A stretch of DNA of 64,000 nucleotides. It comes from Hyaloperonospora brassicae. Lineage: Eukaryota; Oomycota; Peronosporomycetes; Peronosporales; Peronosporaceae. The notes beneath the pieces were generated by a model. That model was given only the letters and a program-made list of their open reading frames with translations, did no database searches and was not told where the DNA came from. Position 1 is the first letter of the stretch, and every line of letters begins with the position of its first letter. The position numbers and the translations under genes were made by a program. This document shows, one piece after another, positions 8,980-46,305 of this stretch. The DNA lies in contig CANTFL010000017.1 in NCBI GenBank assembly GCA_947650285.1, forward strand, positions 124,001-188,000, in the 5' to 3' direction.

Positions 8980-9320
8980 AGGGTATGGAGACCGCTTCCT
9001 ATAGCGGGATTGAGTTGGGGGGGGGGTGCTACTCCACGAACCTACAGGCCAATATACTTCCTGGGGTTCTATTTGCACTTGAGTCGTACCAGCACTGTCT
9101 ATTCAACGGGTGGGCCAAATAGATCCCTGGCCCGGAACAGGTTGGTAGACTTACAAGCTTCTTGGCTCACGAGACGTGTGGCTTCGATCGCAAACTGAGT
9201 AGTCTTCAATAATGTCCTATCCTTTAAACTCCTTTACTCTGTACTTGCCTTACGCCTGGACTCACTATGCTGAGTGGTCAGGGACGCTTGATCTTAATAG
9301 TCCGGGTCGGCCGATGGATG

Positions 9321-9556
9321 ATCAGGTCGGCCCTTGGGTGACCGAGGTCGCCTTGATCGGCCGTACCCACCAAAGGGAGACCAGGTCGGCCCTTGGGTGA
9401 CCGAGGTCGCCTTGATCGGCCGTACCCACCAAAGGGTGACCAGGTCGGCCCTTGGGCGGCCGAGGTCGCCTTGATCGACCGTACCCACCAAAGGGTGACC
9501 AGGTAGGCCCTTGGGTGACCGAGGCCGCCTTGGTCGGCCGTACCTACCGACGAGTG
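9321..9556. repeat. 59-bp tandem repeat inside LTR A, about 4 copies
   Basis: A 59-bp unit beginning ACCAGGTCGGCCCTTGGGTG recurs at about 9321, 9380, 9439 and 9498 with few mismatches; the last copy degenerates near 9556. It lies in the outer (U3-like) part of the LTR, where tandem repeats often act as enhancers in LTR elements. The repeats stay open on the minus strand (9278-9697), but no known protein is recognisable there. Confidence 0.85.
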
Positions 9557-23029: not shown

Positions 23030-26000
23030 GATCCTGATCGCCCTCAGCGATTAAAATGTGATTCCTGATCGCCCCAGCGATTGACTGTGATTCCTGATTG
23101 CCCCCAGCGATTAGGTGTGACTCCTCATCGCTTCCAAGAAATTTATTGCGATTCCTGATCGCCTTCAGCATATGGGTGTGATTCCTGATCGCATCCAGCA
23201 ATTGGGTGTGAATCCTGATCGACCTCATTAATTGGGTGCAATTCCTGATCGACCTCAGCAATTGGGTGCAATTCCTGATCGACCTCAGCAATTGGGTGCG
23301 ATTCCTGATCGACCTCATCAATTGGGTGCAATTCCTGATCGACCTCAGCAATTGGGTGTGATTCCTGATCGCCTCCAGCAATTGAGCGTGATTCCTGATC
23401 GCCTTCAGCAATTGGTTGTGACTCCTGATCGACCTCAGCAATTTATTGCGATTCCTGATCGCCCTTAGCAATTGGGCGTGATTCCTGATCGCCTTCAGCA
23501 ATTGGGTGTGACTCCTGATCGCCCCAGCAATTTATTGCGATTCCTGATCGCCCATAGCAATTGGGCGTGATTCCTGATCGCCTTCAGCAAATGGGCGTGA
23601 TTCCTGATCGCCTTCAGCAATTGGGTGTGACTCCTGATCGACCTCATTAATTGGGTGCAATTCCTGATCGCCCATAGCAATTGGGCGTGATTCCTGATCG
23701 CCCTCAGCAATTGGGTGTGACTCCTGATCGACCTCATTGATTGGGTGCAATTCCTGATCGACCTCAGCAATTGGGTGTGATTCCTGATCGCCTCCAGCAA
23801 ATGGGCGTGATTCCTGATCGCCTTCAGCAATTGGGTGTGACTCCTGATCGACCTCATTAATTGGGTGCGATTCCTGATCGCCCCCAGCAATTACGCGTGA
23901 TTCCTGATCGCCTTCAGCAAATGGGCGTGATTCCTGATCGCCTTCAGCAAGTGAATGTGACTCCTGATCGACCTCATTAATTGGGTCCAATTCCTGATCG
24001 ACCTCAGCAATTGGGTGTGATTCCTGATCGCCTCCAGCAATTGAGCGTGATTCCTGATCGCCCATAGCAATTGACGTGATTACTGATCGACCTCAGCAAT
24101 AGATTGTGATTCCTGATCTCCCCCAGCAATTGAGCGTAATTCCTGATCGCCTTCAGCAATTGGGTGTGACTCCTGATCGACCTCATTAATTGGGTGCAAT
24201 TCCTGATCGCCCCCAGCAATTGAGCGTGATTCCTGATCGCCTTCAGCAAATGGGCGTGATTCCTGACCGCCTTCAGCAATTGGGTGTGACTCCTGATCGA
24301 CCTCATTAATTGGGTGCAATTCCTGATCGACCTCAGCAATCGGGTGTGATTCCTGATCGCCTCCATCAATTGAGCGTGATTCCTGATTGCCTTCAGCAAT
24401 TGGGTGTGACTCCTGATCGACCTCAGCAATTTATTGCGATTCCTGATCGCCCATAGCAATTGGGCGTGATTCCTGATCGCCTTCAGCAATTGGGTGTGAC
24501 TCCTGATCGACCTCATTTGTTGGGTGTGATTCCCGATCGCCTCCAGCAATTGAGCGTGATTCCTGATCGCCTTCAGCAATTGGGCGTGATTTCTGATCGA
24601 CCTCAGCAATTAATTGCGATTCCTGATCGCCCATAGCAATTGGGCGTGATTCCTGATCGACCTCAGCAATTGATTGTGATTCCTGATCTCCCCAGCAATT
24701 GGGCGTAATTCCTGATCGCCTTCAGCAATTGGGTGTGACTCCTGATCGACCTCATTAATTGGGTGCAATTCCTGATCGCCCCCAGCAATTGAGCGTGATT
24801 CCTGATCGCCTTCAGCAAATGGGCGTGATTCCTGATCGCCTTCAGCAATTGGGTGTGACTCCTGATCGACCTCATTAATTGGGTGCAATTCCTGATCGAC
24901 CTCAGCAATCGGGTGTGATTCCTGATCGCCTCCAGCAAATGGGCGTGATTCCTGATTGCCTTCAGCAATTGGGTGTGACTCCTGATCGACCTCAGCAATT
25001 TATTGCGATTCCTGATCGCCCATAGCAATTGGGCGTGATTCTTGATCGCCTTCAGCAATTGGGTGTGACTCCTTATCGACCTCATTTGTTGGGTGTGATT
25101 CCCGATCGCCTCCAGCAATTGAGCGTGATTCCTGATCGCCTTCAGCAATTGGGTGTGACTCCTGATCGCCCCAGCAATTTATTGCGATTCCTGATCGCCC
25201 ATAGCAATTGGGCGTGATTCCTGATCGCCTTCAGCAAATGGGCGTGATTCCTGATCGCCTTCAGCAATTGGGTGTGACTCCTGATCGACCTCATTAATTG
25301 GGTGCAATTCCTGATCGCCCATAGCAATTTAGCGTGATTCCTGATCGCCCTCAGCAATTGGGTGTGACTCCTGATCGACCTCATTGATTGGGTGCAATTC
25401 CTGATCGACCTCAGCAATTGGGTGTGATTCCTGATCGCCTCCAGCAAATGGGCGTGATTCCTGATCGCCTTCAGCAATTGGGTGTGACTCCTGATCGACC
25501 TCATTAATTGGGTGCGATTCCTGATCGCCCCCAGCAATTACGCGTGATTCCTGATCGCCTTCAGCAAATGGGCGTGATTCCTGATCGCCTTCAGCAAGTG
25601 AATGTGACTCCTGATCGACCTCATTAATTGGGTCCAATTCCTGATCGACCTCAGCAATTGGGTGTGATTCCTGATCGCCTCCAGCAATTGAGCGTGATTC
25701 CTGATCGCCCATAGCAATTGACGTGATTACTGATCGACCTCAGCAATAGATTGTGATTCCTGATCTCCCCCAGCAATTGAGCGTAATTCCTGATCGCCTT
25801 CAGCAATTGGGTGTGACTCCTGATCGACCTCATTAATTGGGTGCAATTCCTGATCGCCCCCAGCAATTGAGCGTGATTCCTGATCGCCTTCAGCAAATGG
25901 GCGTGATTCCTGACCGCCTTCAGCAATTGGGTGTGACTCCTGATCGACCTCATTAATTGGGTGCAATTCCTGATCGCCCATAGCAATTGGGCGTGATTCC

Positions 26001-29000
26001 TGATCGCCTTCAGCAATTGGGTGTGACTCCTGATCGACCTCATTAATTGGGTGCAATTCCTGATCGACCTCAGCAATTGGGTGTGATTCCTGATCGCCTC
26101 CAGCAATTGAGCGTGATTCCTGATCGCCCATAGCAATTGACGTGATTACTGATCGACCTCAGCAATAGATTGTGATTCCTGATCTCCCCCAGCAATTGAG
26201 CGTAATTCCTGATCGCCTTCAGCAATTGAGTGTGACTCCTGATCGACCTCATTAATTGGGTGCAATTCCTGATCGCCCCCAGCAATTGAGCGTGATTCCT
26301 GATCGCCTTCAGCAAATGGGCGTGATTCCTGACCGCCTTCAGCAATTGGGTGTGACTCCTGATCGACCTCATTAATTGGGTGCGATTCCTGATCGCCCCC
26401 AGCAATTACGCGTGATTCCTGATCGCCTTCAGCAAATGGGCGTGATTCCTGATCGCCTTCAGCAAGTGAATGTGACTCCTGATCGACCTCATTAATTGGG
26501 TCCAATTCCTGATCGACCTCAGCAATCGGGTGTGATTCCTGATCGCCTCCAGCAAATGGGCGTGATTCCTGATTGCCTTCAGCAATTGGGTGTGACTCCT
26601 GATCGACCTCAGCAATTTATTGCGATTCCTGATCGCCCATAGCAATTGGGCGTGATTCCTGATCGCCTTCAGCAATTGGGTGTGACTCCTGATCGACCCC
26701 AGCAATTGGGTGTGATTCCTGATCGCCTCCAGCAATTGGGCGTGATTCCTGATCGCCTTCAGCAATTGGGTGTGACTCCTGATCGACCTCATTAATTGGG
26801 TGCGATTCCTGATCGCCCCCAGCAATTACGCGTGATTCCTGATCGCCTTCAGCAAATGGGCGTGATTCCTGATCGCCTTCAGCAAGTGAATGTGACTCCT
26901 GATCGACCTCATTAATTGGGTCCAATTCCTGATCGACCTCAGCAATTGGGTGTGATTCCTGATCGCCTCCAGCAATTGAGCGTGATTCCTGATCGCCCAT
27001 AGCAATTGACGTGATTACTGATCGACCTCAGCAATAGATTGTGATTCCTGATCTCCCCCAGCAATTGAGCGTAATTCCTGATCGCCTTCAGCAATTGGGT
27101 GTGACTCCTGATCGACCTCATTAATTGGGTGCAATTCCTGATCGCCCCCAGCAATTGAGCGTGATTCCTGATCGCCTTCAGCAAATGGGCGTGATTCCTG
27201 ACCGCCTTCAGCAATTGGGTGTGACTCCTGATCGACCTCATTAATTGGGTGCAATTCCTGATCGACCTCAGCAATCGGTTGTGATTTCTGATCGCCTCCA
27301 TCAATTGAGCGTGATTCCTGATTGCCTTCAGCAATTGGGTGTGACTCCTGATCGACCTCAGCAATTTATTGCGATTCCTGATCGCCCATAGCAATTGGGC
27401 GTGATTCCTGATCGCCTTCAGCAATTGGGTGTGACTCCTGATCGACCTCATTTGTTGGGTGTGATTCCCGATCGCCTCCAGCAATTGAGCGTGATTCCTG
27501 ATCGCCTTCAGCAATTGGGTGTGACTCCTGATCGCCCCAGCAATTTATTGCGATTCCTGATCGCCCATAGCAATTGGGCGTGATTCCTGATCGCCCCCAG
27601 CAATTGAGCGTGATTCCTGATCGCCTTCAGCAAATGGGCGTGATTCCTGATTGCCTTCAGCAATTGGGTGTGACTCCTGATCGACCTCATTAATTGGGTG
27701 CAATTCCTGATCGCCCCCAGCAATTGAGCGTGATTCCTGATCGCCTTCAGCAAATGGGCGTGATTCCTGATCGCCTTCAGCAATTGGGTGTGACTCCTGA
27801 TCGACCTCATTAATTGGGTGCAATTCCTGATCGACCTCAGCAATCGGGTGTGATTCCTGATCGCCTCCATCAATTGAGCGTGATTCCTGATTGCATTCAG
27901 CAATTGGGTGTGACTCCTGATCGACCTCAGCAATTTATTGCGATTCCTGATCGCCCATAGCAATTGGGCGTGATTCCTGATCGCCTTCAGCAATTGGGTG
28001 TGACTCCTGATCGACCTCATTTGTTGGGTGTGATTCCCGATCGCCTCCAGCAATTGAGCGTGATTCCTGATCGCCTTCAGCAATTGGGTGTGACTCCTGA
28101 TTGCCCCAGCAATTTATTGCGATTCCTGATCGCCCATAGCAATTGGGCGTGATTCCTGATCGCCCCCAGCAATTGAGCGTGATTCCTGATCGCCTTCAGC
28201 AAATGGGCGTGATTCCTGATCGCCTTCAGCAATTGGGTGTGACTCCTGATCGACCTCATTAATTGGGTGCAATTCCTGATCGCCCCCAGCAATTGAGCGT
28301 GATTCCTGATCGCCTTCAGCAAATGGGCGTGATTCCTGATCGCCTTCAGCAATTGGGTGTGACTCCTGATCGACCTCATTAATTGGGTGCAATTCCTGAT
28401 CGACCTCAGCAATTGGGTGTGATTCCTGATCGCCTCCAGCAAATGGGCGTGATTCCTGATCGCCTTCAGCAATTGGGTGTGACTCCTGATCGACCTCATT
28501 AATTGGGTGCAATTCCTGATCGCCCCCAGCAATTGAGCGTGATTCCTGATCGCCTTCAGCAAATGGGCGTGATTCCTGATCGCCTTCAGCAATTGAATGT
28601 GACTCCTGATCGACCTCATTAATTGGGTCCAATTCCTGATCGACCTCAGCAATTGGGTGTGATTTCTGATCGCCCATAGCAATTGAGCGTGATTCCTGAT
28701 CGCCTTCAGCAATTGGGTGTGACTCCTGATCGACATCATTAATTGGGTGCAATTCCTGATCGACCTCAGCAATTGGGTGTGATTCCTGATCGCCTTCAGC
28801 AATTGAGCGTGATTCCTGATCGCCTTCAGCGATTGGAATGTGATTCCTGATCGCCCCAGCGATTGACTGTGATTCCTGATTGCCCCCAGCGATTAGGTGT
28901 GACTCCTGATCGCCCCCAGCAATTGGGTGCGATTCCTGATCGACCTCATTAATTGGGCGTGATTCCTGATCGCCTTCAGCAAATGGGTGTGATTCCTGAT

Positions 29001-29340
29001 CGCATCCAGCAATTGGGTGTGATTCCTGATCGACCTCATTAATTGGGTGCAATTCCTGATCGACCTCAGCAATTGGGTGTGATTCCTGATCGCCCCCAGC
29101 AATTGAGCGTGATTCCTGATCGCCTTCAGCAATTGGGTGTGACTCCTGATCGCCTTCAGCAATTGGGTGTGACTCCTGATCGACCCCAGCAATTGGGCGT
29201 GATTCCTGATCGCCTTCAGCAAATGGGTTTGATTCCTGATCGCATCCAGACACTGGGTGCGATTCCGTATCGACCTCATTAATTGGGTGCAATTCCTGAT
29301 CGACCTCAGCAATTGGATGCAATTTCTGATAGCATTTATG
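23030..29340. repeat. 30-bp minisatellite, about 210 copies, inside element B pol
   Basis: A 30-bp unit, typified by ATTCCTGATCGCCTTCAGCA followed by ATTGGGTGTG, is repeated in tandem for about 6.3 kb. Variants differ at a few fixed positions (CCTTCAGCA, ACCTCAGCA, ACCTCATTA, CCCATAGCA, CCCCCAGCA). Higher-order blocks recur: the run with ATTACGCGTG then AAGTGAATGTG occurs near 23891, 25537, 26405 and 26825, and a one-base-short variant (CAATTGACGTGATTACTG) near 24070, 25718, 26137 and 27006. Because 30 is a multiple of three, long frames stay open on the minus strand, coding a 10-residue repeat such as GDQESHPIAE in one frame and AIRNHAQLLE in another. I do not treat these as genes. Confidence 0.95.
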
Positions 29341-32317: not shown

Positions 32318-34811
32318 CTAGTTTAACATCCCCTCCGCCTTGGGCGGAAATATTCCTGCGTGCTTGGTAGGCACATACCATTGGTGCATTCGATTGTAGA
32401 GCTTTTCCAAAGGGCACTTGATACTCTCATGCACTTTTCCATAGGCTGTACACGCGTAAAAACATTTGTCCGATGGATTTCCTTTACGGCCGCACTTCTG
32501 GGAAGTCAATCGCTTTCAGCAGACACGATCATTATGCTTGATCGATCCACAGTGAGTGCACGGTTTTGATCGTTCTCCGTGATCGCGTAACTCCTCCCTA
32601 TCAGCTTCTTCATGCGGCATACGATGATCTTGGTTTAATTGCACTAAAGTGGGGACGGTAGTTGCACAAACTCTGCGCCGGTCCACGTCCTCTTCCGATC
32701 TGCTTCGATCCGACTTCAAACTGCTGCTCTCGTTTTCCACCCCAATCGCTTGTACGGCTCGGGTTGATTTTGACGGCACCTGATCAGCATTAACTTTTGA
32801 TCGCTGATGAAACTTTCGTGATCCCATCGACGACGTCGTGTACCGGTTTTCCATCCGCTGATACGCACGCAACGTTTCTTCCATGTCGTTGGCGTCCGAC
32901 AATCCCAGTAGGTTCAACTTTTTCGCTAATTCGCGATCGTCCAGCGTCGAAATAAAATGCTCCACATGTTCACGCCGCGTAGCATGTCTTCCTTCATCTA
33001 TCGCGACCTTGGCTCGGATCGCTGCCATATTCAATCAGTGTAAATACTTCAGCGGGGTTTCATCCGGTCGTTTGCGTGCGTGGTAATACTGTCTGGCATT
33101 TGGCACACCGTACTTTTCATTTTTCACCATGAAACCTTCCAGCAGATCTTTCCACGTGCGACGAGTCGTGCGACTCAGTGACTGTGCCAATTCTGTGCCG
33201 GTCCCGTCAGTAGATCACCTAACACCAGGCGTTTCTCTTTATCTGGTATTTGGTACCTTAGGAACGCCGACTTGACCTTGCTAACCCAGCTTTTGGCGCG
33301 ATCTTCGGCTCGGTTTCTGCCATTGAATTCATTCAGCTCGCCGATCACCGAGAAACAGATACGCTGGGGAGACGGACCTAAATTTATTGAAACTTCTGCA
33401 GGCGCCATTAATGGACGCCTCAGGTCTTCCCGATCGTATTTGTACGGGGTATGTACTCCGTGATCGCCAAATTCTGATTGACTTTGACGCGATCCGACCG
33501 AATTCATCTCCACATTAGGAAAGTATGTCTCTCGCGCTCTAAAAATTTTGATCGCTTGACTTGGGTAGATAGCTTGACAGACTTGACTCAGCTGCCCCTA
33601 TTGGAATTGCTCCATTGCGTTGTCAATGTAGGAAAGCAGATGTCCTTGTAAGACCACTGCGTCATCTCCGGTGGCGCATATAGCTGCCGATCGCGGCTCA
33701 GCCCTGATTCCTTTGGCGCGATCATGTAGATGAGCGGAACCAATGGGGCCTAGTGACATCCGTTGAATGTCGATCGAGGCGTCTAAGTCGAACTGGGATT
33801 CCACTAAGGGATATTGCGACGATCCGGTGTGGTATTTCTTCGTCAGGTCCGCGACCATGGTACTCGCTTGATATTTAATCTTGGCTTTTCCTGCGAGAGG
33901 AATCAGCTTCTCGTACAGCGATCGACATGCGCAGGTAATTTGATCTTGGTTAAAATCCAACAACATTTTCACATCGATCATCTTTACCACAAATCCAGAT
34001 TCACGCAAAAGTCGCATGATCCTATAGATTCCTTCCAGCATGTTTGATTCACTTGCCGGGGTCGATACCGGGCCTTGAATTTCGTCGATCAGTTTTGGCT
34101 TCAGCACTTGGAGTACTAATTCGCTTTACAGTAGATTCTTGAGAATATTCCACTCGTACGTATCGGCCAGTTCTTCATATTGCCATTCTTCTATCTTGAT
34201 CTCTTTATCCACGATTTTGAACGGCTTCGAGATCTTGTTCTTAACTTGATCACGTTGATCGGGCTCGGTCGTTGTTTATTTTACCCTCACAGTCCTCGTT
34301 CGATCTTTTCTCGAGATCGCGGGTGTAACTTTGGGCAACTTTTGCTCGGGGTTTTTTTAGCCGATGGGTTTTCACCCTGCAAACCATGCTTTGTAGCACG
34401 ATCCGCGGTGGTCCCCGATGGGACCTCAGGAGGGGGTCGAGGTTTTTCTTCCAAATCTAGCGATCGATTTTTCTCGTTTATTTTCTTGTCTGTAGAGCCC
34501 CTCCCAGAACTCTGATGAACTGGGAATCTTTAAGGCTCACGCGTCTGTGACGATTCCTTGGCCTTCGACGCTTCCAACTTAGGTTCAGTTTTTATCTCCA
34601 CATGTTCACTCAGGGGTTCACGGTGAAATCTTGAGTCACCAGACGATCCGGGCACGCGCACCATTGTGGTGGAGTGGCGATCGCTCAATTTATTAGTCGA
34701 TCCCAACTCTCCACTGGGGCCCGGACGACCGACTAAAGGAGGGTGTACTCCGGTTCCGTGTTCTTGATTGCCTCCCTCACCTTGTGGACCCGTCGGTGGG
34801 GCAGGTTGCAC
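32318..34811 (-). pseudogene. gag: gag of element B
   Basis: The start at 34811 gives MQPAPPTGPQGEGGNQEHG, followed near 34660 by the TTMVRVPGSS segment shared with element A. Capsid-like sequence lies at 33175-33513 (AEDRAKSWVSKVKSAFLRY, LLTGPAQNWH) and 32516-33034. Zinc-knuckle remnants (CTHCGSIKHNDRVC, CGRKGNPSDKC) precede the terminal QWYVPTKHAG. The frame is broken at least four times. Confidence 0.8.
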
Positions 34812-35672
34812 TCTTCCAGGTGGACTCGTGTCAATGGAAAACTTGACCGTGTTTGAGATGGGGTCGAGGTTCTATCACGGTGTGGAAATCTTCACAACAC
34901 GATCGGGGTCGGCGTGATCACGTGGAATTCGTCACGCGATCACTTGTATGCTTGTGAGGTGCTCGATATGAGTCACCCTGATCTGTAACAGATCGCCTTG
35001 TCCAAATGTAGACCTTGATTCGCGAGCCTTCTGACCACTTGAGCCGTCTCGCGATCTTGGGTCCTCAACGACAAAGGGTTTCCTGCGTCCAGTCGCAGTC
35101 GGGGTGTTGCTTGAGAGATCTTGATCCCTGGCCAAACAATCCAGGGATATCACTTGATTAAAGTATGTAAACCTTTCCTTGACGTCGGGCGGCCAATGGT
35201 CCACCCGGAGGAGAAGTCGAAACGTGTACTTTGAAGCAAATTGAACTCTGTTTAATGTTAACCAATCAAACCCAACAAGCCTGTACCTATCCCCATGTCT
35301 TGGACATCGTTTGCCACATGTCGCTCTCTCTAGACGATAGCGATCTTGTACTTGCGTGGCCCACACCTGGTATACTTGTCTGATCGCGATCACATACCTG
35401 ATCACGATCTCCATCGCCTCCTTGATCGCGATTGCCTTGCTGATAGCGGTTCCCTTCTTGATCGACTGATCGCCAACGTTACCTTCCGCCTCATACCTTG
35501 ACCCAAGATAGCAGGTCCCAACCTGCCCGATCTGATATCCATTTTAGTCTGAATGTCCAATAGACGCGATCTGACCAGATGTGGGACCGGGCAGCCAAAC
35601 GTTAACTGGTTCGGACATAACGGAAATGCGATCAGTTCCTCTACAGCGAATTTCCATAGTCGCTTTACCACA
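34667..35672 (-). repeat. 5' LTR + leader + gag start of element B, right copy
   Basis: This is the partner of 18821-19826. The LTR starts at 35672, where similarity ends sharply at TACCACA on the plus strand. The gag start codon at 34811 lies within the repeat, so the repeat is longer than the LTR itself. Confidence 0.85.
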
Positions 35673-37866: not shown

Positions 37867-38049
37867 TGTAACGGGGCAAAACCTTTGCGTGAACTTAACG
37901 CAAGCGTGAGATGTGCCTGACAAGCGTACACAGGGCAATCGAGAAAGCGGTAGACAAAACAGAACCCGAAAGCTCTGTCTTGAGGGAAAAGTTTAACTGT
38001 TTATTTAATATAGCAATTACGTTAAATATCATCTTTAACTTACTCTAAC
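37867..38049 (-). repeat. Solo LTR related to element C, left part
   Basis: It begins TGTAACGGGG, the terminal inverted repeat of the element C LTR. In reverse orientation it aligns with the end of that LTR (TTGCGT...ACGCAA hairpin, CGTACAC, then an AT-rich stretch), with much divergence. It is interrupted at 38049 by element C. Together with 46041-46300 it makes a 443-bp solo LTR flanked by GTGAT. Confidence 0.8.
38045..38049. repeat. Target-site duplication CTAAC (left) of element C
   Basis: CTAAC directly before the LTR start at 38050 is repeated at 46036-46040 directly after the 3' LTR. Confidence 0.9.
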
Positions 38050-38440
38050 TGTAACGGGGCAGCCCGTTACATGAAATTGTCACTTTAAGGAAAGTGACAA
38101 TAAAGAATATAAAGATGGATATTCTTTAAAACAATATCACCAAAGTGGTGATATTGAAGGGTCGACCAAAGGGTCTGTTCATTGGTTGATATCGTGATGA
38201 TATCAACCCACCAATCGCCGCAAGACGCGCGCAATGAGTGGTGACGAGACGTCACCATACATGCAGTTATATTAGTATAATTGAATTAAGTCAAACGAAG
38301 AGACAGTAGTTTAAAGACTTAATTTATTAATATAACAGTTCTACTTTTACCCTACCTACGCTTCCTCGCTTGCCACGTGTACGTCCGTCGGGGCACCCAA
38401 ATCCCTTGCGTTAAGTTACGCAAGGGTGTACCCCGTTACA
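38050..38440 (+). repeat. 5' LTR of element C
   Basis: The LTR runs from TGTAACGGGG to CCCCGTTACA, perfect 10-bp inverted ends. It contains at least six perfect hairpins, among them stems of 8 bp at 38051-38070, 11 bp at 38076-38101, 11 bp at 38132-38156 and 10 bp at 38184-38208. It should contain the promoter, but no TATA-like box was assigned. Confidence 0.95.
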
Positions 38441-38442
38441 CC

Positions 38443-38454
38443 TGGTAGCACTTT
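38443..38454 (+). promoter_or_regulatory. Primer-binding site of element C
   Basis: TGGTAGCA begins two bases after the LTR end. Its first 7 nt match the TGGTAGC start of initiator-Met-tRNA primer sites of the yeast type. The match does not clearly extend further, so the tRNA identity is tentative. Confidence 0.6.
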
Positions 38455-38484
38455 GTAGTCCTTCCAAGGACCACATCATCCAAC

Positions 38485-39639
38485 ATGAACATGTTGGATG
38501 AAGAAGACACCTTTCACGCCACGCGTGAAGGGTTTACCCATTTGAGTGACATCGAATGGGGTGCGGTAGAACGAATGAGTTCTACCATAGGCGAACTCGT
38601 CGTCAGCGCCATGTTGGAGTCTCTAGACAGAGACCAACAACATGCCGCTATCGCCAAGTTCATTCAGAATGAACTTGCTCTCGAGGGGGAGAAAGTAGCC
38701 TTGCTTCACCAGCAAGGCTCTCAACAGGCCGAGCAGTTGAGAGAACTCGGTGCTCAACAGACGGAGCTGTTGAGACAGCAGCAATTCCATGCTGCTGTGG
38801 GCGGGACGGCGCATGCGCGTCGTCCCGAAGTCATGAAAGTTGACATTTCCAAGTACAGTGGAGTCCCGGAGGACTCCCTGTTACTATGGTTTGTCGAACT
38901 CGACAGAGCCCTAAGGGCTCGTCGCGTCGAAGATGAGCAAATGAAACTCACATTTGCTCAGACCCACTTGGCAGGGCGTGCCAAAACTTGGTCCCTGGGA
39001 CTCGAGAGTAGCGACCCAAATGTGTTTAGGTCGCTAGATGACTTCAAGTCTCGGCTCAGACAAACGTTTGAGCCGCCACGTGCTGAGTTCAGGGCTCTCT
39101 CAGAGCTCCTGAAACTCAAGCAGGTTAAGCGTGATGTGCACGCTTTCGCACAACATATACGACCCCTTGCGAGTAGTATAACTGCTAACCCAGTCCATGA
39201 ACACACTTTGATCACGGTGTTCATGCAAGGGCTCGCAGAAGGGCCCGTCAGGAGCCACCTGTTCCGCCTTGAGCTGAATACGCTTGAAGAAGCGATATCA
39301 GCCGCGGAACAGGAAGACTTTATCATGAGACAGGCTCATGCTAGCTCAAACTCTTACCGTCCACCGAGACGACAAGAGATCGGAGGTCCAGAACCAATGG
39401 ACCTCTGCTATGTTGAGAGCGAGAGACCTCGCTCTACAAACAACAAGCGATTGCAGAGGTGCAATCGCTGTCAGAAGTTAGGGCACTACGCATACGAGTG
39501 TAGTGCTCCACGCCCAGTACCAAACAGTACTGAGCGAAATGGACGACCTTTTGCCAGAAAGGGCAATGGGCGTGGGTCCAGCGCTGTTGCGAAGCCGCAA
39601 CAGCGAGACAAACCATCAAAAAATGGTCGGGGTCAGTAG
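38485..39639 (+). CDS. gag: Gag protein of element C
   Basis: A 384-residue Gag begins MNMLDEEDTF. The region around residues 115-285 is a retrotransposon-gag capsid domain (LLLWFVELDRALRARRVED, LAGRAKTWSLGLE, DFKSRLRQTFEPP). A single CCHC knuckle (CNRCQKLGHYAYEC) near residue 330 binds RNA, followed by a basic tail. The start codon at 38485 lies in a 10-bp hairpin (arms 38477-38486 and 38491-38500, loop GAAC), with a second in-frame ATG at 38491. The stop at 39637 lies in the stem of the predicted frameshift structure. The gene is intact. Confidence 0.92.
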   Translation: MNMLDEEDTFHATREGFTHLSDIEWGAVERMSSTIGELVVSAMLESLDRDQQHAAIAKFIQNELALEGEKVALLHQQGSQQAEQLRELGAQQTELLRQQQFHAAVGGTAHARRPEVMKVDISKYSGVPEDSLLLWFVELDRALRARRVEDEQMKLTFAQTHLAGRAKTWSLGLESSDPNVFRSLDDFKSRLRQTFEPPRAEFRALSELLKLKQVKRDVHAFAQHIRPLASSITANPVHEHTLITVFMQGLAEGPVRSHLFRLELNTLEEAISAAEQEDFIMRQAHASSNSYRPPRRQEIGGPEPMDLCYVESERPRSTNNKRLQRCNRCQKLGHYAYECSAPRPVPNSTERNGRPFARKGNGRGSSAVAKPQQRDKPSKNGRGQ

Positions 39640-39660
39640 GGGCGGAGCGCCCTACTGATC
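39618..39660 (+). promoter_or_regulatory. Predicted -1 programmed frameshift signal (gag to pol)
   Basis: The heptamer A AAA AAT (39618-39624) is in the correct X XXY YYZ phase of the gag frame. After 6 nt comes a stem of 11 pairs (39631-39641 with 39650-39660, one G-U), with a short inner helix and loop. Slipping back one base puts the ribosome in the pol frame, which is open from 39624 through the gag stop to pol with no stop codon. All three elements of a canonical -1 site are present; function is inferred. Confidence 0.8.
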
Positions 39661-42600
39661 CAGCAACCTCAAGAGAATTTGCAAATCTCTTAACGAAAGT
39701 TGCTCCAGATACACAATCATTGTGTGTCTCTGCACCTGGTGATGACGTTTCGCTCATCACCTTGAAGTTGGAAGCGACAAATGATTTGTCGCTTCGTGCC
39801 CTAGTAGACTGTGGGGCGTCGAACAACTTTGTTCGTCGCCAGTCACTAGAGGGTCGTAGGCTCAAGTTCGTTGAGCGCGACATTCCCCTCACAAGGATGA
39901 CGGTGCGCCTTGCAACAGGCGCATCGATAACCGTTGAGAAACGTGTAGTAGGAATCCACTACACGTTGGAGGGCGAACAGTACGATGATGACTTCATCGT
40001 ACTAGATCTGGATGACAAATTTGATGTCATCCTGGTATTACCTTGGCTCAGAAAGTACGAGCCAAGGGTGAGCTGGCAGCATCGATCCGTGAAGATGCCT
40101 GCTGCTTGTTCATCAGATGGCCATCTGATGAACATCTTGGAGCGTCCACAAGCGTGTGGATGTTCTGCGAGTGAGTGCGATGGCCTCACTTGCGGTACGG
40201 TCGTTAGCACGACTGCACAAGATCACAGTGTAGTTGATCACTACACTGTGGAGCAAGCTCCCGGCGGCTGTACAGAAGTAAAGGCTGCGCCGAAGGTCCA
40301 CCATTCGAAGAAGTCGAGTGGACCGGGAAATGGATGCATGCCTAGCGGGAAGCATCTTAGACAAAAGAAACCTGTTGCCCCCAAAGGGCAACATGGAAAT
40401 CCTAGGTCGACTGGAGAGTCGACCGTAGAGGATCGGTACCTGACTGTGGTCGCACAGCCACAGTCAGAAGACGTCGAGGGAATAAGTCCCCACGTACTTG
40501 AGGAAGGAATTCTTCAAGAGTCGCTTGCTGAGGGGTTAGGCCCTCAGCAACCTGTGGAAGCAAGTTCCCAGGAAGAAACCGAGACGTTGAACGTCTTGGT
40601 TAATGACGGATCAAGCGTAGGCGCTTATACGCTTGATCTGATTGTGCCTCCGAAGTTGACTTCGGAGATAACTCAGTTGCCAACGCTAGAACCGAAACGG
40701 TTCTTGCGTGATCTGCGTAGTGGCAAAGTCAAGCAGATCTGCATACTCGTCACAGAGGACGAGTATGTGACCGACATTCGGTCGGCAACAGTATTTGCTG
40801 AGAACGAACGGGTTCTCAGCAGCTCATCGATGGACGAAAGTGTCCTCGATGGGAAGACTCGGATTGAGCGATACGCGTCCCAATCCTGGGAGTCACTTCA
40901 GGCAAATCCTTTGTATAAGGATTTGATCGAATTCAGGGATGTGTTCCCTGAATCCGTACCTTGCGAGTTGCCTAAGGACAAAGGCACTCGACACGATATC
41001 GAGCTCAAACCGGGCTCGAAATACTGTGTCATGAAGCAGTGGCCACTGCCTCGTGAACAAGTGATAGCGATCGACAAGTTCTTTGCCGATCGCTTAGCAG
41101 CGGGCCATGTGAGGGAATCAACATCCCCTCACAGCTCTCCGACCTTCTGTGTGCGAAAGGCCACAGGAGGGTGGCGGATAGTGCACGCATTCAACAAGTT
41201 GAATGCTGCAACGGTACCGGCTCAGACGCCGATACCGAGGAAGGACGTAATCATAGATGGTATGTCAAAGAGTACCATCTTTTCGTCCATGGATCTGATG
41301 GATGGATTCTATCAGATCCTGATGCGTGAACGGGACGTCCCGTTCACGGCAGTGAGTACCCCCAGCGGGATGCTGTGGGAGTGGCTAGTGATGCCACAGG
41401 GGCTGAGTAATGCCCCTGCAACATTCAACAGATGTGTAACAAATCTGTTGAGACCGGTGCGAGACTTCGCACCGAGTTACTTCGACGATGTGTTCGTCCA
41501 TAGCCGGGCTATGGACGGAGAGACGGACGTTGAAGTTCACAGAACTCACGTTCGTCAGGTTCTTCAACTTATGCGCAAGCATAAGTTGTACGCCAACCTC
41601 AAGAAGTGTACATTCGCGGCTAGCGAAATACCACTTCTTGGGTGCATCGTGGGTAAACACGGCGTACGCCCTGATCCCGAAAAGATCAAGGCGATCACCG
41701 ACTGGCCAGTGCCAGTCGATGTCAAGGGACTAAGGAAGTTCCTTTGTCTTGCGGATAACTTGCACAAGTACTCGCGCAACTACGCCGAGATGACTGTTCA
41801 TCTTTCTTGCTTGCTCAAGAAAAATGTCAAGTGGTCATGGAACGCTGAGTGCCAGCGTTCCTTTGAAGGTATCAAGCGGAGCTTGATGCAATCGCCGATC
41901 TTGGTGATTGCAGATCAGGACAGACCATTCCATGTGGTCTGTGACGCCAGCGATTTTGCAATCGGCTGTGCGTTAATGCAGTTCGATGCAGATGGCGCGG
42001 AGCGCGTCATCTGTTATCAGTCGCGTCAGCTGCAAGCAGCTGAGCGCAATTACCCAGTGCATGACAAGGAACTCCTTGCCATGAAATACGCACTGGCTAA
42101 GTTTCGCGTCTATCTCTTGGGAGATAGAGCGTTTGTTGTCTACACGGACCATGCGTCATTACGCACGGCCGTAAACAGCCCACACCTCTCGCAAAGAATG
42201 GCGAGGTGGCTGTCTTTCTTCGCGGAGTATAACTTCTCCGTGGAGTATAAACCGGGACGACTCAATGTCGTCGCTGATGCGCTTTCGCGCCGGCCCGATT
42301 TCGAGCCGGACGCACAATCCAACAGTGAGGATAAGCCCACTGTTGCGAAACTGAGAGACAGTGTCCCGTCGTCAAGTTTACTTGACGACGTAAGAAAGGC
42401 ATACGCGGAAGATGAGGATCTTCTGCGATTAATGGATCATCTGGTGAATCCATCCAGTAAATACATGAGGGATTTACCGGCTTTGTACCGATCCTCATCG
42501 GATCGGTATAGTACACGCAACGAATTGCTGTACTATACAGCTGTTGCCGACGACACGCCTCGTGTCGTCGTACCCGCTCATCATGATTTGCGGTTGCGCA

Positions 42601-43553
42601 TCATGTACGAGTGTCACGATGCCCCAACAAGCGGCCATCGTGGAAGGGAAAAGACTTACCTCACGGTAAGTCGTGACTTTTACTGGCCCCGCCAGTATCA
42701 GTTTGTTCGCAAGTACATACGTGCTTGTGAAGTTTGTCAACGGGTGAAGCCTAGTCCTTCATCCCGTGCGCCATTGCAGCCTCTGCCTGTTCCGACAGAG
42801 TGCTGGCAGTCCGTTTCAATGGACTTCGTCTTCGGGTTTCCCGAAGACGCTCACAAGAATAATGGTATTCTTGTGTTTGTAGACCGATTCAGCAAGATGG
42901 TCCATCTTGCTGCTGTCCCTGAGTCAATCAAGGCTCAAGGTTGTGCTCGTGTCTTTCTAGACACGGTCTTTAGACTCCACGGGTTACCCCGTGAACTCGT
43001 ATCCGACCGTGACCCTCGGTTCACGGCGGAATTTTGGCAAACCGTGTTCCGTACTCTCGGAACACGATTGAAGATGTCCACTTCTGACCATCCAGAAACA
43101 GATGGTCAGACGGAACGTGCGAACCGTGTCCTCGAAGAGATTCTTCGAGGATATGTCCACTCGTTTCCGAGTTGGAGCGAATTCCTACCCATGGTGGAAT
43201 TCGCCATCAATAATTCGGTGCATGCTTCAACACAGCACACACCGTTTTACGTGAATGGCCTACGCCATCCACGAGTGCCCACCATTATAGAGTGTAACTC
43301 TTGGATAAGGGGGGAGGGACTCGCTCGAGCAAAAACCGTTTTGGCTCTTGCTCATCACGTGTCGACGCAAACGTCTTCACGTATGATGCCGATGTCGATC
43401 AAGTCGACATCGATGAAGAAGATCATCTCAATAATAGCGAAGACGCTATTATTGATTCGGATGATGATGACGATGCTGGTATATTCAGCATCGCCAACGA
43501 TTATGTCAGCGAGGAAGAAGACAACCTCGCTGAAGAAGAGAGCAATCTCTTAG
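39624..43553 (+). CDS. pol: Pol polyprotein of element C: protease, RT, RNase H, integrase
   Basis: The frame is reached by -1 shift from gag; there is no ATG near its beginning. The protease active site reads VDCGASNNFV (about 39804), with Cys in place of the usual Ser or Thr. Reverse transcriptase spans about 40900-41760, with intact YFDDVFVHS at 41478. Ty3 RNase H follows (VVCDASDFAIGCALMQ, ELLAMKYALAKF, YTDHASL). Integrase has an HHCC zinc domain (H, then CHDAPTSGHRG, CEVCQR near 42730) and a DDE core (Asp at 42822, Asp near 43005, Glu in TDGQTERANR near 43110). The frame then runs out of register after a G-run at 43309-43314 and stops at 43553. Confidence 0.92.
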   Translation, partial: WSGSVGAERPTDPATSREFANLLTKVAPDTQSLCVSAPGDDVSLITLKLEATNDLSLRALVDCGASNNFVRRQSLEGRRLKFVERDIPLTRMTVRLATGASITVEKRVVGIHYTLEGEQYDDDFIVLDLDDKFDVILVLPWLRKYEPRVSWQHRSVKMPAACSSDGHLMNILERPQACGCSASECDGLTCGTVVSTTAQDHSVVDHYTVEQAPGGCTEVKAAPKVHHSKKSSGPGNGCMPSGKHLRQKKPVAPKGQHGNPRSTGESTVEDRYLTVVAQPQSEDVEGISPHVLEEGILQESLAEGLGPQQPVEASSQEETETLNVLVNDGSSVGAYTLDLIVPPKLTSEITQLPTLEPKRFLRDLRSGKVKQICILVTEDEYVTDIRSATVFAENERVLSSSSMDESVLDGKTRIERYASQSWESLQANPLYKDLIEFRDVFPESVPCELPKDKGTRHDIELKPGSKYCVMKQWPLPREQVIAIDKFFADRLAAGHVRESTSPHSSPTFCVRKATGGWRIVHAFNKLNAATVPAQTPIPRKDVIIDGMSKSTIFSSMDLMDGFYQILMRERDVPFTAVSTPSGMLWEWLVMPQGLSNAPATFNRCVTNLLRPVRDFAPSYFDDVFVHSRAMDGETDVEVHRTHVRQVLQLMRKHKLYANLKKCTFAASEIPLLGCIVGKHGVRPDPEKIKAITDWPVPVDVKGLRKFLCLADNLHKYSRNYAEMTVHLSCLLKKNVKWSWNAECQRSFEGIKRSLMQSPILVIADQDRPFHVVCDASDFAIGCALMQFDADGAERVICYQSRQLQAAERNYPVHDKELLAMKYALAKFRVYLLGDRAFVVYTDHASLRTAVNSPHLSQRMARWLSFFAEYNFSVEYKPGRLNVVADALSRRPDFEPDAQSNSEDKPTVAKLRDSVPSSSLLDDVRKAYAEDEDLLRLMDHLVNPSSKYMRDLPALYRSSSDRYSTRNELLYYTAVADDTPRVVVPAHHDLRLRIMYECHDAPTSGHRGREKTYLTVSRDFYWPRQYQFVRKYIRACEVCQRVKPSPSSRAPLQPLPVPTECWQSVSMDFVFGFPEDAHKNNGILVFVDRFSKMVHLAAVPESIKAQGCARVFLDTVFRLHGLPRELVSDRDPRFTAEFWQTVFRTLGTRLKMSTSDHPETDGQTERANRVLEEILRGYVHSFPSWSEFLPMVEFAINNSVHASTQHTPFYVNGLRHPRVPTIIECNSWIRGEGLARAKTVLALAHHVSTQTSSRMMPMSIKSTSMKKIISIIAKTLLLIRMMMTMLVYSASPTIMSARKKTTSLKKRAIS

Positions 43554-44533
43554 CAGTGCGCACGAAGCGCACTGAAATACAAAACAAAGAGTCAGCAGAG
43601 AACTTCCTGCTGACTCGAGAAGCGGTAGTCCGTTTCGTTCAGGACTCCATCGCAAATGCGGTGGACCGTCAGAAACGGAACGCAGACAAGAATGGAAGAG
43701 CAAATGTTCTTTCATTTAAAGTTAACGACCTAGTACTACTGTCAACGGTAAACCTACCTGGACATGCAGTCACTAGTGTCGGCAGTAGCAAACTACTGCC
43801 GAAATACATTGGGCCATTTCGAGTGTTGCATCGCAAGGGCAATGCATACACACTCGAATTGCCACGTAGGATGCGCACGCATCCTACGTTTTACGTGGGG
43901 AGGCTTAGGTCGTACTGTCAGTACGAGCCTTCTTCTTCCGATGAAGATAGCCCCCACGTTCAAGAACATCCATCAAGTTCTTGCGTTCGCGCTCCAGACG
44001 ATCCGTCTGGTCGCGCAGATACGATACCTCGGTATTCAACCGAGATATCTCCCCGCGAGCTGTCGCCAGCTCGCCGAATAGGGAGCGGACATCCCGCTCG
44101 ACCTGAAGCTGCGCCGTGGCATAATCGGCGCGATCCCTCGCCCGATCAGCCTCGTGACCCTTGCGGTTCTTCCGCACGGTGTCGGTCAAAGCGTAGCGTC
44201 GGTCGCGCTCGTGCTTCAAGTCATCGCGCAATTCATCGATTGCGCGATCCATCTCGTAAGGGTCGAGATGGTGAACAGAATCATCTGGAGGAGGTCTTTC
44301 CTCCTCCACCACATCCTTTGGTGGATGCTCACGGTGATCAACGCTTTCTAGTGGAGCGTATCTTGAATCACCGTGACGATTCAGGATCAAGGACGAGCTA
44401 CCTTGTCCAGTGGCGGGGGTATCCACCCTCTTGGAACAGCTGGGAGCCCCGCTCTCAGCTGTTGATGGATGTTGAAGGTCTCGTCCGCCAGTATGACGAG
44501 ACCCATCCGATGAGTCCTGTGGCCCATCGGTAA
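43315..44533 (+). pseudogene. pol: 3' part of element C pol: integrase tail and chromodomain, out of frame
   Basis: Pol continues in a different frame after the 6-G run, encoding GGGTRSSKNR, an acidic insert, the integrase C-terminal module ([49 protein letters not shown]) and, after a variable linker, a chromodomain ([36 protein letters not shown]) near the stop at 44533. One extra G in the run would restore a continuous frame, so this is a single-base lesion or a sequencing error. From 43905 on, the antisense ORF occupies the other strand. Confidence 0.85.
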
Positions 44534-45512
44534 ACACGCGCCCTAGGCGCTTGTAGACGGATTGCAAGTTTGCAATCGCGTCACGCATCTCCTCCGAGAG
44601 ATGTGCCCTTCCCCAGGGCGAATTTAGGGAGTACACAACCCTATGTGCACGCTGCGAGTTGTCAACACAACTCGCACAAGGGTCTCCCCATGTGAGGCAA
44701 GGAATGCCTGCCTCACTCGATAAACAATGCAACCGGTACCTAGCACCGGTTGGCGTTCGCCGTTCGAACCTGAGGCGTGTTGCCTCAAGTTTCTTGAGCC
44801 ACCCTTCTCGTCCAAAATTCTTTACGTTTTGAACGAACGCGTTCCACGCAGCCAAAAGCGATGTTTTGTCACGCTTTTGGTTGTTGTTGTACCATCGATT
44901 TCTAAGGAAGACATCGAGATAAAAGTCTTCTTCAGCGCGAAAGTTCTTCGCGCTGGGACTCAAGCCGTGAAGCTCGGTTGCATCGAATAAGGGTATTCGA
45001 TGGTGTTGGCCTGTCTCGTGAGACAGGCTATTGATGAGTTGTTCGGGCAAACGCCACGGCTTCAACTCATCACGCTTCACAGTGGTACCCTTGTCGGTAC
45101 CACGGCTCCCAGATTGACGACGGCTCGCGCCATCGTCATTACGCTCGTGCGAAGACGCACGAGCCGGCGGTGGTGAAGAATAGAACTCACCACCCTGATC
45201 ATCATCATCATCACTGCCGAACAGACTGTGATGCAAATCACGAGTCCGTTCGTTCGGCAGTGGTCTTGGCGAATACTGAGGCGTCGCCGGTGAGCGAGAC
45301 GCCTCTGGAGCATTGCCCGAGTCAGACACGTCTGACTCGCCAGAGTAGATGACCTCTACATCAGGGTCATCGTGCGCACGCGGTGTGATACCGCGTGCAC
45401 CTGCAGCACCTGTTGCTGCAGGCGAAGAACGAGCAGCAGACGACGAAGCGTCTGCCGCAGAGGCTTGCACAGCACCAGGCTGTGTGGGTCTTGAGTCACC
45501 TCGCATAGACAT
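43905..45512 (-). CDS. Antisense ORF of element C, 535 residues
   Basis: A long ATG-initiated frame runs against gag-pol between the chromodomain and the 3' LTR. The N-terminal 150 residues are Ala/Ser/Pro-rich and acidic. A compact central region (about residues 155-330) has folded-domain character, with many Trp, Tyr and Cys residues ([49 protein letters not shown]). The last 130 residues are a charged coiled coil ending in KKKARTD, a nuclear-signal-like tail. It overlaps the plus-strand chromodomain frame by 629 bp. I recognise no named family. Accessory antisense genes at this location are known in some plant Gypsy elements, so an accessory role is plausible. It is uninterrupted. Confidence 0.7.
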
Positions 45513-45631
45513 GTTAACTATGCGAGGTCAAGCGGAAAGTGAATGGAACGGACCCAACAAGTGCTCCCTGTCCCAATGGTGGCCAACGGGTGGCCTCCAT
45601 GTTTTCGATAGTCTCACGGTGACTATCAGTT

Positions 45632-45644
45632 AAGGGGGCGGTGA
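45632..45644 (+). promoter_or_regulatory. Polypurine tract of element C
   Basis: AAGGGGGCGGTGA directly precedes the 3' LTR start at 45645. It is purine-rich and correctly placed to prime plus-strand DNA synthesis. Confidence 0.75.
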
Positions 45645-46035
45645 TGTAACGGGGCAGCCCGTTACATGAAATTGTCACTTTAAGGAAAGTGACAATAAAG
45701 AATATAAAGATGGATATTCTTTAAAACAATATCACCAAAGTGGTGATATTGAAGGGTCGACCAAAGGGTCTGTTCATTGGTTGATATCGTGATGATATCA
45801 ACCCACCAATCGCCGCAAGACGCGCGCAATGAGTGGTGACGAGACGTCACCATACATGCAGTTATATTAGTATAATTGAATTAAGTCAAACGAAGAGACA
45901 GTAGTTTAAAGACTTAATTTATTAATATAACAGTTCTACTTTTACCCTACCTACGCTTCCTCGCTTGCCACGTGTACGTCCGTCGGGGCACCCAAATCCC
46001 TTGCGTTAAGTTACGCAAGGGTGTGCCCCGTTACA
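45645..46035 (+). repeat. 3' LTR of element C
   Basis: 391 bp, identical to 38050-38440 except G instead of A at 46025. It has the same TGTAACGGGG and CCCCGTTACA ends and is followed by CTAAC at 46036-46040. Confidence 0.95.
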
Positions 46036-46040
46036 CTAAC
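46036..46040. repeat. Target-site duplication CTAAC (right) of element C
   Basis: Direct repeat of 38045-38049. Confidence 0.9.
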
Positions 46041-46300
46041 TATGTTAAACTATCTTCTCCTACGTGGGTCCCATGCTCACCACCCATTGCGCGCGTCCAG
46101 CAGCGATTGGTGGTTGAGTTGGTTGATGTACACCGTACATCAACCGAGAAGTGGACCCCTCCACGGATATTATCCTTAGCGATAATAATCTGACAACATC
46201 ACTCATTTCGAGAGATGTTGATCGAATATTATCAAAACAGTTAATATTCGAAATGGTACTTTCGTACCAAATTTTAATGTAACAGGCTCACCCCGTTACA
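46041..46300 (-). repeat. Solo LTR related to element C, right part
   Basis: Continues the LTR begun at 37867. The stretch CATTGCGCGCGTC followed by GCGATTGGTGG (46084-46112) aligns with the reverse complement of the element C LTR at 45803-45834. After this anchor come hairpins in the same order as in element C but with different stems (see findings). It ends CCCCGTTACA at 46300, followed by GTGAT. Confidence 0.85.
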
Positions 46301-46305
46301 GTGAT
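46301..46305. repeat. Target-site duplication GTGAT (right) of solo LTR
   Basis: Pairs with 37862-37866. Confidence 0.85.

Follow-up and report, generated by a model that had tools for sequence, protein, structure and literature searches.

In Hyaloperonospora brassicae, the retrotransposon designated element C carries short perfect hairpins over its whole length, coding regions included, and it is likely that these hairpins are maintained and not accidental, because residues encoded by stems are conserved to about the same degree as others, double changes in gag stems restore the pairing, and fourfold sites change slowly in stems. The element lies at positions 38050–46035 of the window, by which the whole 64,000-nt stretch analysed here is meant (GCA_947650285.1, contig CANTFL010000017.1, positions 124,001–188,000 of the forward strand). 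A single stretch of 8 kb holds two layers, a full retroviral-type protein set and hairpins at intervals of about 62 nt, each of which appears to be maintained.

Element C lies on the + strand and is a young chromodomain retrotransposon of the Ty3/gypsy type. It is flanked by copies of the target-site duplication CTAAC (38045–38049 and 46036–46040) and bounded by two TG...CA LTRs, of which the 5' LTR of 391 bp (38050–38440) has one mismatch to the 3' LTR (45645–46035). The gag ORF (38485–39639, +) encodes the capsid and a zinc knuckle, the latter matching PF13917 with a score under the curated cut-off, and the pol ORF (39720–43553, +) encodes protease, RT, RNase H and integrase. The LTRs with their duplication and the Pfam order gag, protease, RT, RNase H, integrase are those of Ty3/gypsy elements, and a terminal chromodomain (PF00385, 1.2e-13), the mark of chromoviruses, sits in a separate frame overlapping the end of pol, together with a Tf2-1-like SH3 domain (43301–44533, +). 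An antisense ORF of 535 aa (43905–45512, −) has homologs in downy mildews and gave no Pfam domain match. The pol product is 83% identical to one Peronospora effusa protein, and a search for DNA relatives in viral and prokaryotic contigs yielded nothing useful, with one 30% match in a Phycisphaerae MAG. Element C is inserted into a related, reverse-oriented solo LTR, the left part of which lies at 37867–38049 (−) and the right part at 46041–46302 (−); in the right part, hairpins occupy the corresponding positions and show compensatory changes, and the hairpins at 46121–46251, just beyond element C, belong to it.

Stems were defined as perfect, with at least 7 bp and a loop of 3–12 nt. Element C has 123 of them, compared to a mean of 4.13 and a maximum of 11 in dinucleotide shuffles (n=100), and 68 stems of at least 9 bp compared to 0.28. 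Synonymous shuffles that leave protein and codons unchanged (n=200 per ORF) gave means of 1.20 for gag (maximum 5), 2.73 for pol (maximum 7) and 1.39 for the chromodomain frame (maximum 6), and the actual numbers of 19, 52 (in 39720–43300) and 17 exceed all of these maxima. The part covered by the antisense ORF only (44534–45512) contributes 17 stems and the 5' LTR 7, of which 6 are non-overlapping, with a stem-free region at LTR positions of about 209–353. Per 2 kb, there are 33, 31, 27 and 32 stems across 38001–46000 and 0–6 in the rest of the window. No stem excess was found in the Gypsy-type pol ORFs of L002 (2 vs 1.95 shuffled) and L014 (1 vs 1.43), in an ORF of L002 without identified product (3 vs 1.47), or in a kinesin gene of the window (3 vs 2.60), and hairpins as a general trait of Gypsy elements or of the genome are ruled out for the sampled sequences. 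The hairpin array of element C is confirmed as real. The original prediction had listed 21 inverted repeats, all of which were recovered at the same positions with stems of equal length or 1 bp longer, and, for a stretch of gag (38655–39075), had counted ten that reach 7 bp or more with loops of 3–12 nt; the recount also gave ten. Its further claim that the array extends over LTR, gag, pol and antisense ORF with the proteins intact is upheld by the scan and the residue comparison, and the claimed absence elsewhere holds as far as it was sampled, in two further pol ORFs of Gypsy type and one host gene. A hairpin density no higher than in shuffles or in other Gypsy elements, which would speak against the prediction, was not seen, as the excess was confined to element C when the four other ORFs were run.

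The stem lengths form a class of 8–11 bp, and no perfect stem of more than 12 bp was found in element C with loops of 3–12 nt. When loops up to 59 nt were scanned, stems of 8 bp or more were mostly no longer in excess past about 13 nt, with a residue of five stems at 23 nt and five at 25 nt. The longest class is exemplified by a 12-bp stem with a 4-nt loop (40107–40134), and hairpins also lie over the conserved RT stretch MDLMDGFYQIL (9-bp stem, 41291–41319) and the conserved integrase stretch SDHPETDGQT (10-bp stem, 43083–43110). The young copy L028 has 129 non-overlapping stems in 7986 nt, about one per 62 nt, and the density of about 15–16 hairpins per kb over 8 kb is alike in coding and non-coding parts. 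On the sense strand, loops are C-poor and richer in A than spacers (31.4% vs 24.7%, p 1.8e-4; A vs T alone, p 0.066), which is a hint of a function of the sense RNA. Apart from this A enrichment, the tetraloop list and the loop composition gave no evident shared loop motif.

That the hairpins are bought by protein change is unsupported, as stem residues are about as conserved as others: residue identity to P. effusa is 91.0% for stem codons and 87.0% for others, stem residues are more conserved in eight of the nine comparisons listed, and over pol 330–1175 stems have a mean residue conservation a little below that of other positions (0.70 vs 0.72). Where coding stems have one mismatch, 23 of 29 are repairable only by a nonsynonymous change (random pairs 8805/14772). 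With stems defined in a different copy, a procedure that can be biased by ancestry which the defining copy shares with either side, fourfold sites of pol differed at 24/372 positions in stems (6.5%), 435/2527 in spacers (17.2%) and 28/104 in loops (26.9%), and codon positions 1–2 changed less in stems (30/1592 vs 415/11476). Fully independent fourfold tests in gag had the same direction without being significant (3/13 vs 59/143 and 9/33 vs 53/123), and L045, one of six pol lineages, showed hardly any fourfold stem effect. Initial estimates of stem conservation were dropped, as selecting stems for perfection in one copy by itself makes them look conserved, and initial counts of single changes came mainly from old copies and likely reflect neutral decay. 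The pooled pol counts exclude L013, which is partial, and L042, which is unrelated to element C past an element position of about 4150 and alone gives 27 restoring and 31 non-restoring double changes; L044 was left out of the pooled count of fixed changes in pol.

The gag clades differ by 31–33%, and of the 15 double changes fixed between them at stem pairs, 14 re-establish Watson-Crick pairing (14/17 with a looser and 13/14 with a stricter threshold), compared to 0–4 restoring and 2–6 non-restoring changes when partners were slid as a control. Over 12 distant gags, 77% of 1526 cells are paired vs 21–27% when slid. The array is present in many genomic copies; two near-identical young ones have 133 and 134 stems, and older ones have fewer stems per kb.

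Also the predicted folding energies set element C apart. In 200-nt windows, the mean folding z in element C (n=39) is −6.44 for the sense and −6.20 for the antisense strand, compared to −0.23 and −0.14 in other windows (n=277), and with a paired difference of −0.24 (SE 0.28) the two strands are equal. G-U mismatches are not clearly favoured over A-C mismatches: one-mismatch stems of L028 have 15 G-U and 12 A-C, fixed single changes gave 2 and 5 in gag stems and 9 and 5 in pol stems, and Watson-Crick pairs broken in young copies, each pair counted once, gave 2 and 4 with 3 others. One count in gag tilts to G-U (18 vs 10, repeated over 12 defining copies), another to A-C (103 vs 73).

The best explanation, to be held tentatively, is a shield against silencing: hairpins of 7–12 bp, which extend over the whole length, are compatible with the proteins and show compensatory changes in relatives of element C, would fold both RNA strands and thereby block pairing with antisense and small RNAs. 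Selection, and not copying bias alone, would keep the hairpins, and the benefit would be protection from hybridisation-based silencing. The useful unit would be one short local hairpin; about 8–10 bp may be enough against strand invasion, extra length would bring no added benefit, and hairpin length would be kept under the size of dsRNA that is cut by Dicer. Hairpins would be needed in sense and antisense RNA alike, and since they must act in both strands, a G-U pair, which is A-C on the opposite strand, would have no advantage. Self-folded strands would block hybridisation with antisense transcripts as well as with small RNAs, and in the oomycete P. infestans most small RNAs (21, 25/26 and 32 nt) are described to map to transposable elements, chiefly LTR retrotransposons, and to cover two Gypsy elements throughout and in both orientations (PMC3522703). 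The shield would be incomplete, because hairpins, loops counted, cover only 33% of element C and gaps between them reach 191 nt. That small-RNA guides are disabled by folding on themselves is poorly supported, as the hairpin-poor L014 nearly equals element C: isolated 21-mers self-fold on both strands in 18.1% of cases in element C, 15.3% in L014 and 6.0% and 5.1% in a further pair of controls, and isolated 25-mers in 34.4% and 27.6% in element C and L014. A feeding of small-RNA silencing, which had been considered in the original prediction, is less supported, as perfect stems with loops of 3–12 nt stop at 12 bp. More doubtful is a reading in which the coding and non-coding sequence of a highly repeated family was rewritten into densely packed self-complementary cassettes, which would keep either strand from hybridising freely and serve as a protein-free armour against RNA silencing, at the codon level and on both strands.

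RNA compaction as well as silencing protection would be compatible with the data. It is rather unlikely that the hairpins are a platform for packaging or compaction, with more than 100 stem-loops on the sense genomic RNA being bound by the Gag nucleocapsid for dense and selective packaging. The discrete size class of hairpins evenly spread over coding and non-coding parts, the A-rich and C-poor loops of the sense strand, and the sub-threshold zinc-knuckle match of Gag would agree with such a platform, but fourfold sites change faster in loops than in spacers and loop sequence therefore does not appear to be kept, GNRA is found in only 2 of 35 tetraloops of L028, and G-U tolerance is not clear. 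Compaction alone should moreover favour longer stems and long-range helices, of which little excess is seen with loops up to 59 nt. Selection on the sense RNA alone is disfavoured by the strand symmetry and the absent clear G-U preference; the A-rich loops point the opposite way.

Unlikely to a higher degree is a copying process as the origin and upkeep of the hairpins, in which, during reverse transcription, the new strand folds onto and copies itself, perfects imperfect inverted repeats and converts mismatches to Watson-Crick pairs, with selection filtering the protein only. Templated repair predicts that the strands are symmetric, that stems are Watson-Crick paired and that changes come in pairs, and paired changes that keep stems perfect are found in relatives of element C. 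Template switching has been put forward as a source of RNA hairpins and of their persistence (PMC8794818), and as a process that makes inverted-repeat arms uniform within coding DNA of yeast (PMC8604942). A mechanism that copies reflected sequence, as had been suggested in the original prediction, has only partial support: it would account for the strand symmetry and for the paired changes, but loops come nearer to the inverted form in just 2 of 204 and 8 of 199 comparisons, all scattered cases, the arm bias is inconsistent (5' vs 3' arm 9 vs 12 in pol and 11 vs 5 in gag, which are small numbers), coding parts are as hairpin-dense as non-coding parts with hairpins on conserved motifs, and stem sites are slower than others at fourfold sites and at codon positions 1–2. 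Loop inversion and one-sided arm replacement were looked for as marks of template switching and not found, with few arm cases. Old copies are poorer in stems, and host DNA replication therefore seems not to keep the hairpins.

A constraint at the DNA level, by which single-stranded cDNA or the integrated copy would form hairpins or cruciforms that promote reverse transcription, recombination or chromatin targeting, is improbable: folding is symmetric between the strands and a clear G-U preference is absent, as would be expected, but loop composition tilts to the sense strand, and stems of 8–11 bp are short for cruciform extrusion. The dinucleotide and synonymous shuffles rule out chance, base composition and codon bias, and together with an assembly artefact these explanations deserve practically no credence, as no support was found for them, the dinucleotide and the protein-and-codon nulls are exceeded about 12- to 30-fold, and the array occurs in many genomic copies with covariation between clades.

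The family is a natural replicated experiment on codon choice that carries nucleic-acid structure and on the upkeep of hairpins through compensatory change, and it bears on whether a genomic parasite can evade small-RNA control by structure, without a suppressor protein. Relatives that are young, old or free of hairpins occur together in one genome, so that the question is addressable within one isolate.

Searches of open-licence papers listed no retrotransposon in which perfect hairpins form an array over the whole genome. The chromoviruses of the oomycete branch share with element C the LTRs, the 5-bp target-site duplication, gag, protease-RT-RNase H-integrase and the chromodomain, but no described member with a hairpin array was listed in those searches. 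Genome-scale ordered RNA structure is a concept for structured plus-strand RNA viruses, in which structure is stronger in the genomic strand and G-U pairs are tolerated. Element C resembles them in a folding energy far under composition and protein nulls along its length, but it has equal z values on both strands and no clear G-U excess. As described for tombusvirus (PMC3662671), structure extends across coding regions, but such genomes are compact with long-range contacts, whereas element C is a DNA-integrated retroelement with mainly local hairpins. Hairpins and arm homogenisation by template switching (PMC8794818, PMC8604942) are alike in perfect stems and paired changes, but the systems described are individual events, whereas in element C a dense array spans 8 kb, stems change slowly and loops fast, and loop inversion is not clearly seen. 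Yeast Ty3 genomic RNA is likewise a structured LTR-retrotransposon RNA, coding regions included, for which the SHAPE map places about 24% of nucleotides in pairs of high probability and gives a well-folded core of about 19.4% (PMC11381356); compared to this probed structure, that of element C is computed, and its short perfect hairpins span the entire element.

Element C (38050-46035), a Ty3/gypsy LTR retrotransposon, encodes gag, pol and a chromodomain, carries the target-site duplication CTAAC and has LTRs of 391 bp that differ from each other at one site. When hairpins are defined as a perfect Watson-Crick stem with a loop of 3-12 nt, the 64-kb window has 165 with a stem of 7 bp or longer, of which 123 lie inside this element, and a stem scan found all 21 inverted repeats that the original prediction had listed as examples. 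The perfect stems of the element comprise 91 of 5 bp, 46 of 6 bp, 23 of 7 bp, 32 of 8 bp, 27 of 9 bp, 29 of 10 bp, 10 of 11 bp and 2 of 12 bp, and none is longer. In a separate scan of the element, 94 of 107 hairpins have loops of 3-8 nt, and the excess of stems is mostly gone at loops of about 13 nt. Stems are enriched about 30-fold over dinucleotide shuffles when all of element C is counted; with synonymous shuffles as the reference, gag shows an enrichment of about 16-fold, pol of 19-fold and the chromodomain frame of 12-fold. The hairpin density is alike throughout L028, a young near-identical copy, with 15.3 per kb in the 5' LTR, 17.3 in gag, 15.9 in pol, 13.8 in the integrase end and chromodomain, 20.4 in the antisense-only part and 15.6 in non-coding DNA. 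LTR positions 209-353 are hairpin-free; this bare stretch (38260-38400 in the window) is seen in both LTRs, is flanked by dense hairpins and, as a guess, is possibly the repeat region that is required to hybridise at strand transfer.

Hairpins were also counted in 22 genomic stretches of 10 kb each, all but one of them (21) contig starts, where repeats may be over-represented. DNA that blastn aligns to element C makes up 28.8 of these 220 kb, including parts of the hairpin-poor stretches L014 and L016, and stems of at least 8 bp number 164 (5.70 per kb) within this matching DNA versus 56 (0.29 per kb) outside. Dense 500-bp bins overlap such matches in 30 of 32 cases, the other two being L003:3501 and L020:2001. 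Another large element of the window, with LTR-like ends formed by direct repeats of 1006 bp (18821-19826 and 34667-35672, 99.0% identical) that enclose a tandem array of about 6.3 kb (23032-29330; shifted copies match at 79-88%), has 0-2 hairpins per 2 kb. A 174-bp direct repeat with an offset of 60 bp (9316-9548, 92.5%) lies near ORFs at 4488-8690 that match an aspartyl protease and, weakly, gag. A pol of Gypsy type (30% identity) is found at L001:8001-10502, on a contig that is binned as Phycisphaerae and is possibly a eukaryotic contaminant.

The named proteins closest to those of element C come from Peronospora effusa (83%) and P. matthiolae, followed by Globisporangium and Phytophthora, which points to a downy-mildew-type oomycete as the likely host. 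The antisense ORF (43905-45512, minus strand, 535 aa) has no Pfam domain and nine homologs among the matches listed, the best with 85% over 54% of the ORF; organism names are given for three of these, which belong to Hyaloperonospora arabidopsidis and P. matthiolae, and two homologs are labelled in their source as a core-binding domain protein and an RxLR candidate. In the genome (100.6 Mb, 898 contigs), a first look gave 9187 pol candidates, and 35 of the 36 that were scored have no internal stop. Relative to gag, pol is shifted into the -1 frame (39534-39720), and yet another frame encodes the integrase end and chromodomain (43301-43553); a pol frame of 1339 aa is common to 33 of the 36 listed copies, with 1605 or 1666 aa in some others, and these arrangements and lengths may represent programmed frameshifts or alternative forms. 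The older copy L042 matches element C as far as element position ~4150; past that point it is unrelated, and hairpins are rare there too. In the neighbouring stretches L035 and L044 of one contig, the gag of L035 belongs to an old clade (69% identity to C) whereas the pol of L044 is 91% identical to C, which would likely reflect recombination between subfamilies.

Folding was predicted for both strands, and in 200-nt windows the mean z is -6.44 (sense) and -6.20 (antisense) in element C versus -0.23 and -0.14 in the rest of the window; a 900-nt piece of gag reaches -17.6 and -14.9 (20 shuffles each). Against synonymous shuffles in 150-nt windows, the mean z is -5.24 for gag (7 windows) and -4.41 for pol (23 windows), compared with -0.84 to 0.04 for four control ORFs, namely a Gypsy-type pol and an unidentified ORF of L002, the Gypsy-type pol of L014 and the kinesin of the window, in which z falls below -3 in about 1 of 17 windows for L014 and in none for the other three. 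Sorted by codon register, the stems of 8 bp or more in pol number 23, 15 and 5, and the rare register, which pairs third with third and first with second codon positions, receives the least help from synonymous freedom. The bias is weak at most in gag (5, 5, 3) and in the chromodomain frame (6, 4, 3), and synonymous shuffles of the three ORFs, pooled and counted for stems of 7 bp or more, give 451, 340 and 315. In L028, 308 of 478 pol stem pairs include at least one third codon position.

The hairpins do not appear to be paid for by the proteins. In pol residues 330-1175, 91.0% of 166 stem residues are identical to P. effusa versus 87.0% of 624 others, and among the 9 homologs listed out of 28 aligned, identity is higher in stems in 8 and lower in P0008; invariant residues amount to 31% versus 34%, and mean conservation to 0.70 versus 0.72. 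The hairpins span conserved stretches of reverse transcriptase and integrase such as MDLMDGFYQIL, FSKMVHLAA and SDHPETDGQT. Among coding one-mismatch stems of L028, 23 of 29 are repairable solely via a residue change, as are 8805 of 14772 random mismatched pairs.

To measure rates of change, stems were defined in one older lineage, and the young copies were then compared with the remaining older lineages. In pol, differences at fourfold sites number 24 of 372 in stems, 28 of 104 in loops and 435 of 2527 in spacers, counts that repeat sites across lineages and may be biased by shared ancestry; stems are below spacers in all six lineages, with p below 0.05 in four. Two gag tests with a fully separate defining lineage point in the same direction and are not significant. 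Across five young copies, variable sites amount to 15 of 1433 in stems and 94 of 4331 elsewhere. Stem totals are 133 and 134 in the young copies L027 and L028 and 123 in C. As non-overlapping stems number 14.8 per kb in C and 6.1-11.1 in older copies, except for one 1.75-kb piece with 13.1, stems are likely lost after copies stop moving.

Pairing also appears to be maintained between relatives. The related solo LTR that is interrupted by element C is 65% identical (247/380) and has hairpins at matching places, several with paired changes. Across 13 LTR pieces, pairing holds in 89.0% of 799 cells, against 31-52% with a slid partner, and 7 of 67 pairs have changed on both sides (2-5 when slid; reached in 2 of 500 shuffles), the 24 further pair types in these pieces not exceeding shuffles (24.3). 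In gag, 12 copies of another clade (67-69% identity) have 1178 of 1526 cells paired (77%, versus 21-27% slid) and 158 of 206 double changes Watson-Crick, numbers that count copies and not events. Counted once per pair, the fixed gag differences are 96 same, 14 double Watson-Crick, 1 double non-Watson-Crick, 12 single (GU 2, AC 5, other 5) and 38 unresolved; slid controls give 0-4 Watson-Crick and 2-6 non-Watson-Crick doubles. Pol, compared with five older lineages, has 6 restoring and 2 non-restoring doubles (slid 0 and 1-4) and 21 single changes (GU 9, AC 5, other 7). Pairwise comparisons with older copies yield 51 restoring and 19 non-restoring changes in hairpin-bearing relatives, and 26 and 43 in the hairpin-poor L014 and L016.

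If the hairpins functioned on the sense RNA alone, GU would be expected to be better tolerated than AC. One-mismatch stems have GU 15 and AC 12 in L028, and GU 11 and AC 13 in C; pairs that vary between the young copies comprise 7 GU, 6 AC and 9 others, and repeated gag counts split, one leaning to GU (18 vs 10) and another to AC (GU 73 vs AC 103). Loops of the sense strand are richer in A than spacers (31.4% vs 24.7%, p 1.8e-4) and poorer in C (20.0% vs 25.6%, p 0.0011), which counts against strict strand symmetry; loop A versus T alone gives p 0.066, and loops of control hairpins (n=135) have 26.6% A.

Slow stems next to fast loops, paired changes and an equal density in coding and non-coding DNA are best explained by selection acting on the paired stems. 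Being mainly local, present on both strands and of a threshold length, the hairpins may serve as a barrier to hybridisation with antisense or small RNAs; against this stand their coverage of only 33% of element C and the weak difference between isolated 21-mers of C and those of L014. The main rivals to such a barrier are a putative array of Gag-binding sites and a putative fold-back-prone reverse transcriptase. In the oomycete Phytophthora infestans, most small RNAs match transposable elements, chiefly those of the LTR-retrotransposon type, and two Gypsy elements are covered throughout in both orientations (PMC3522703). No retrotransposon with such a hairpin array was found in searches of the open-licence literature, subscription papers being mostly outside the scope. 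The nearest mechanistic precedents come from work on template switching (PMC8794818, PMC8604942) and from the Ty3 RNA map (PMC11381356).
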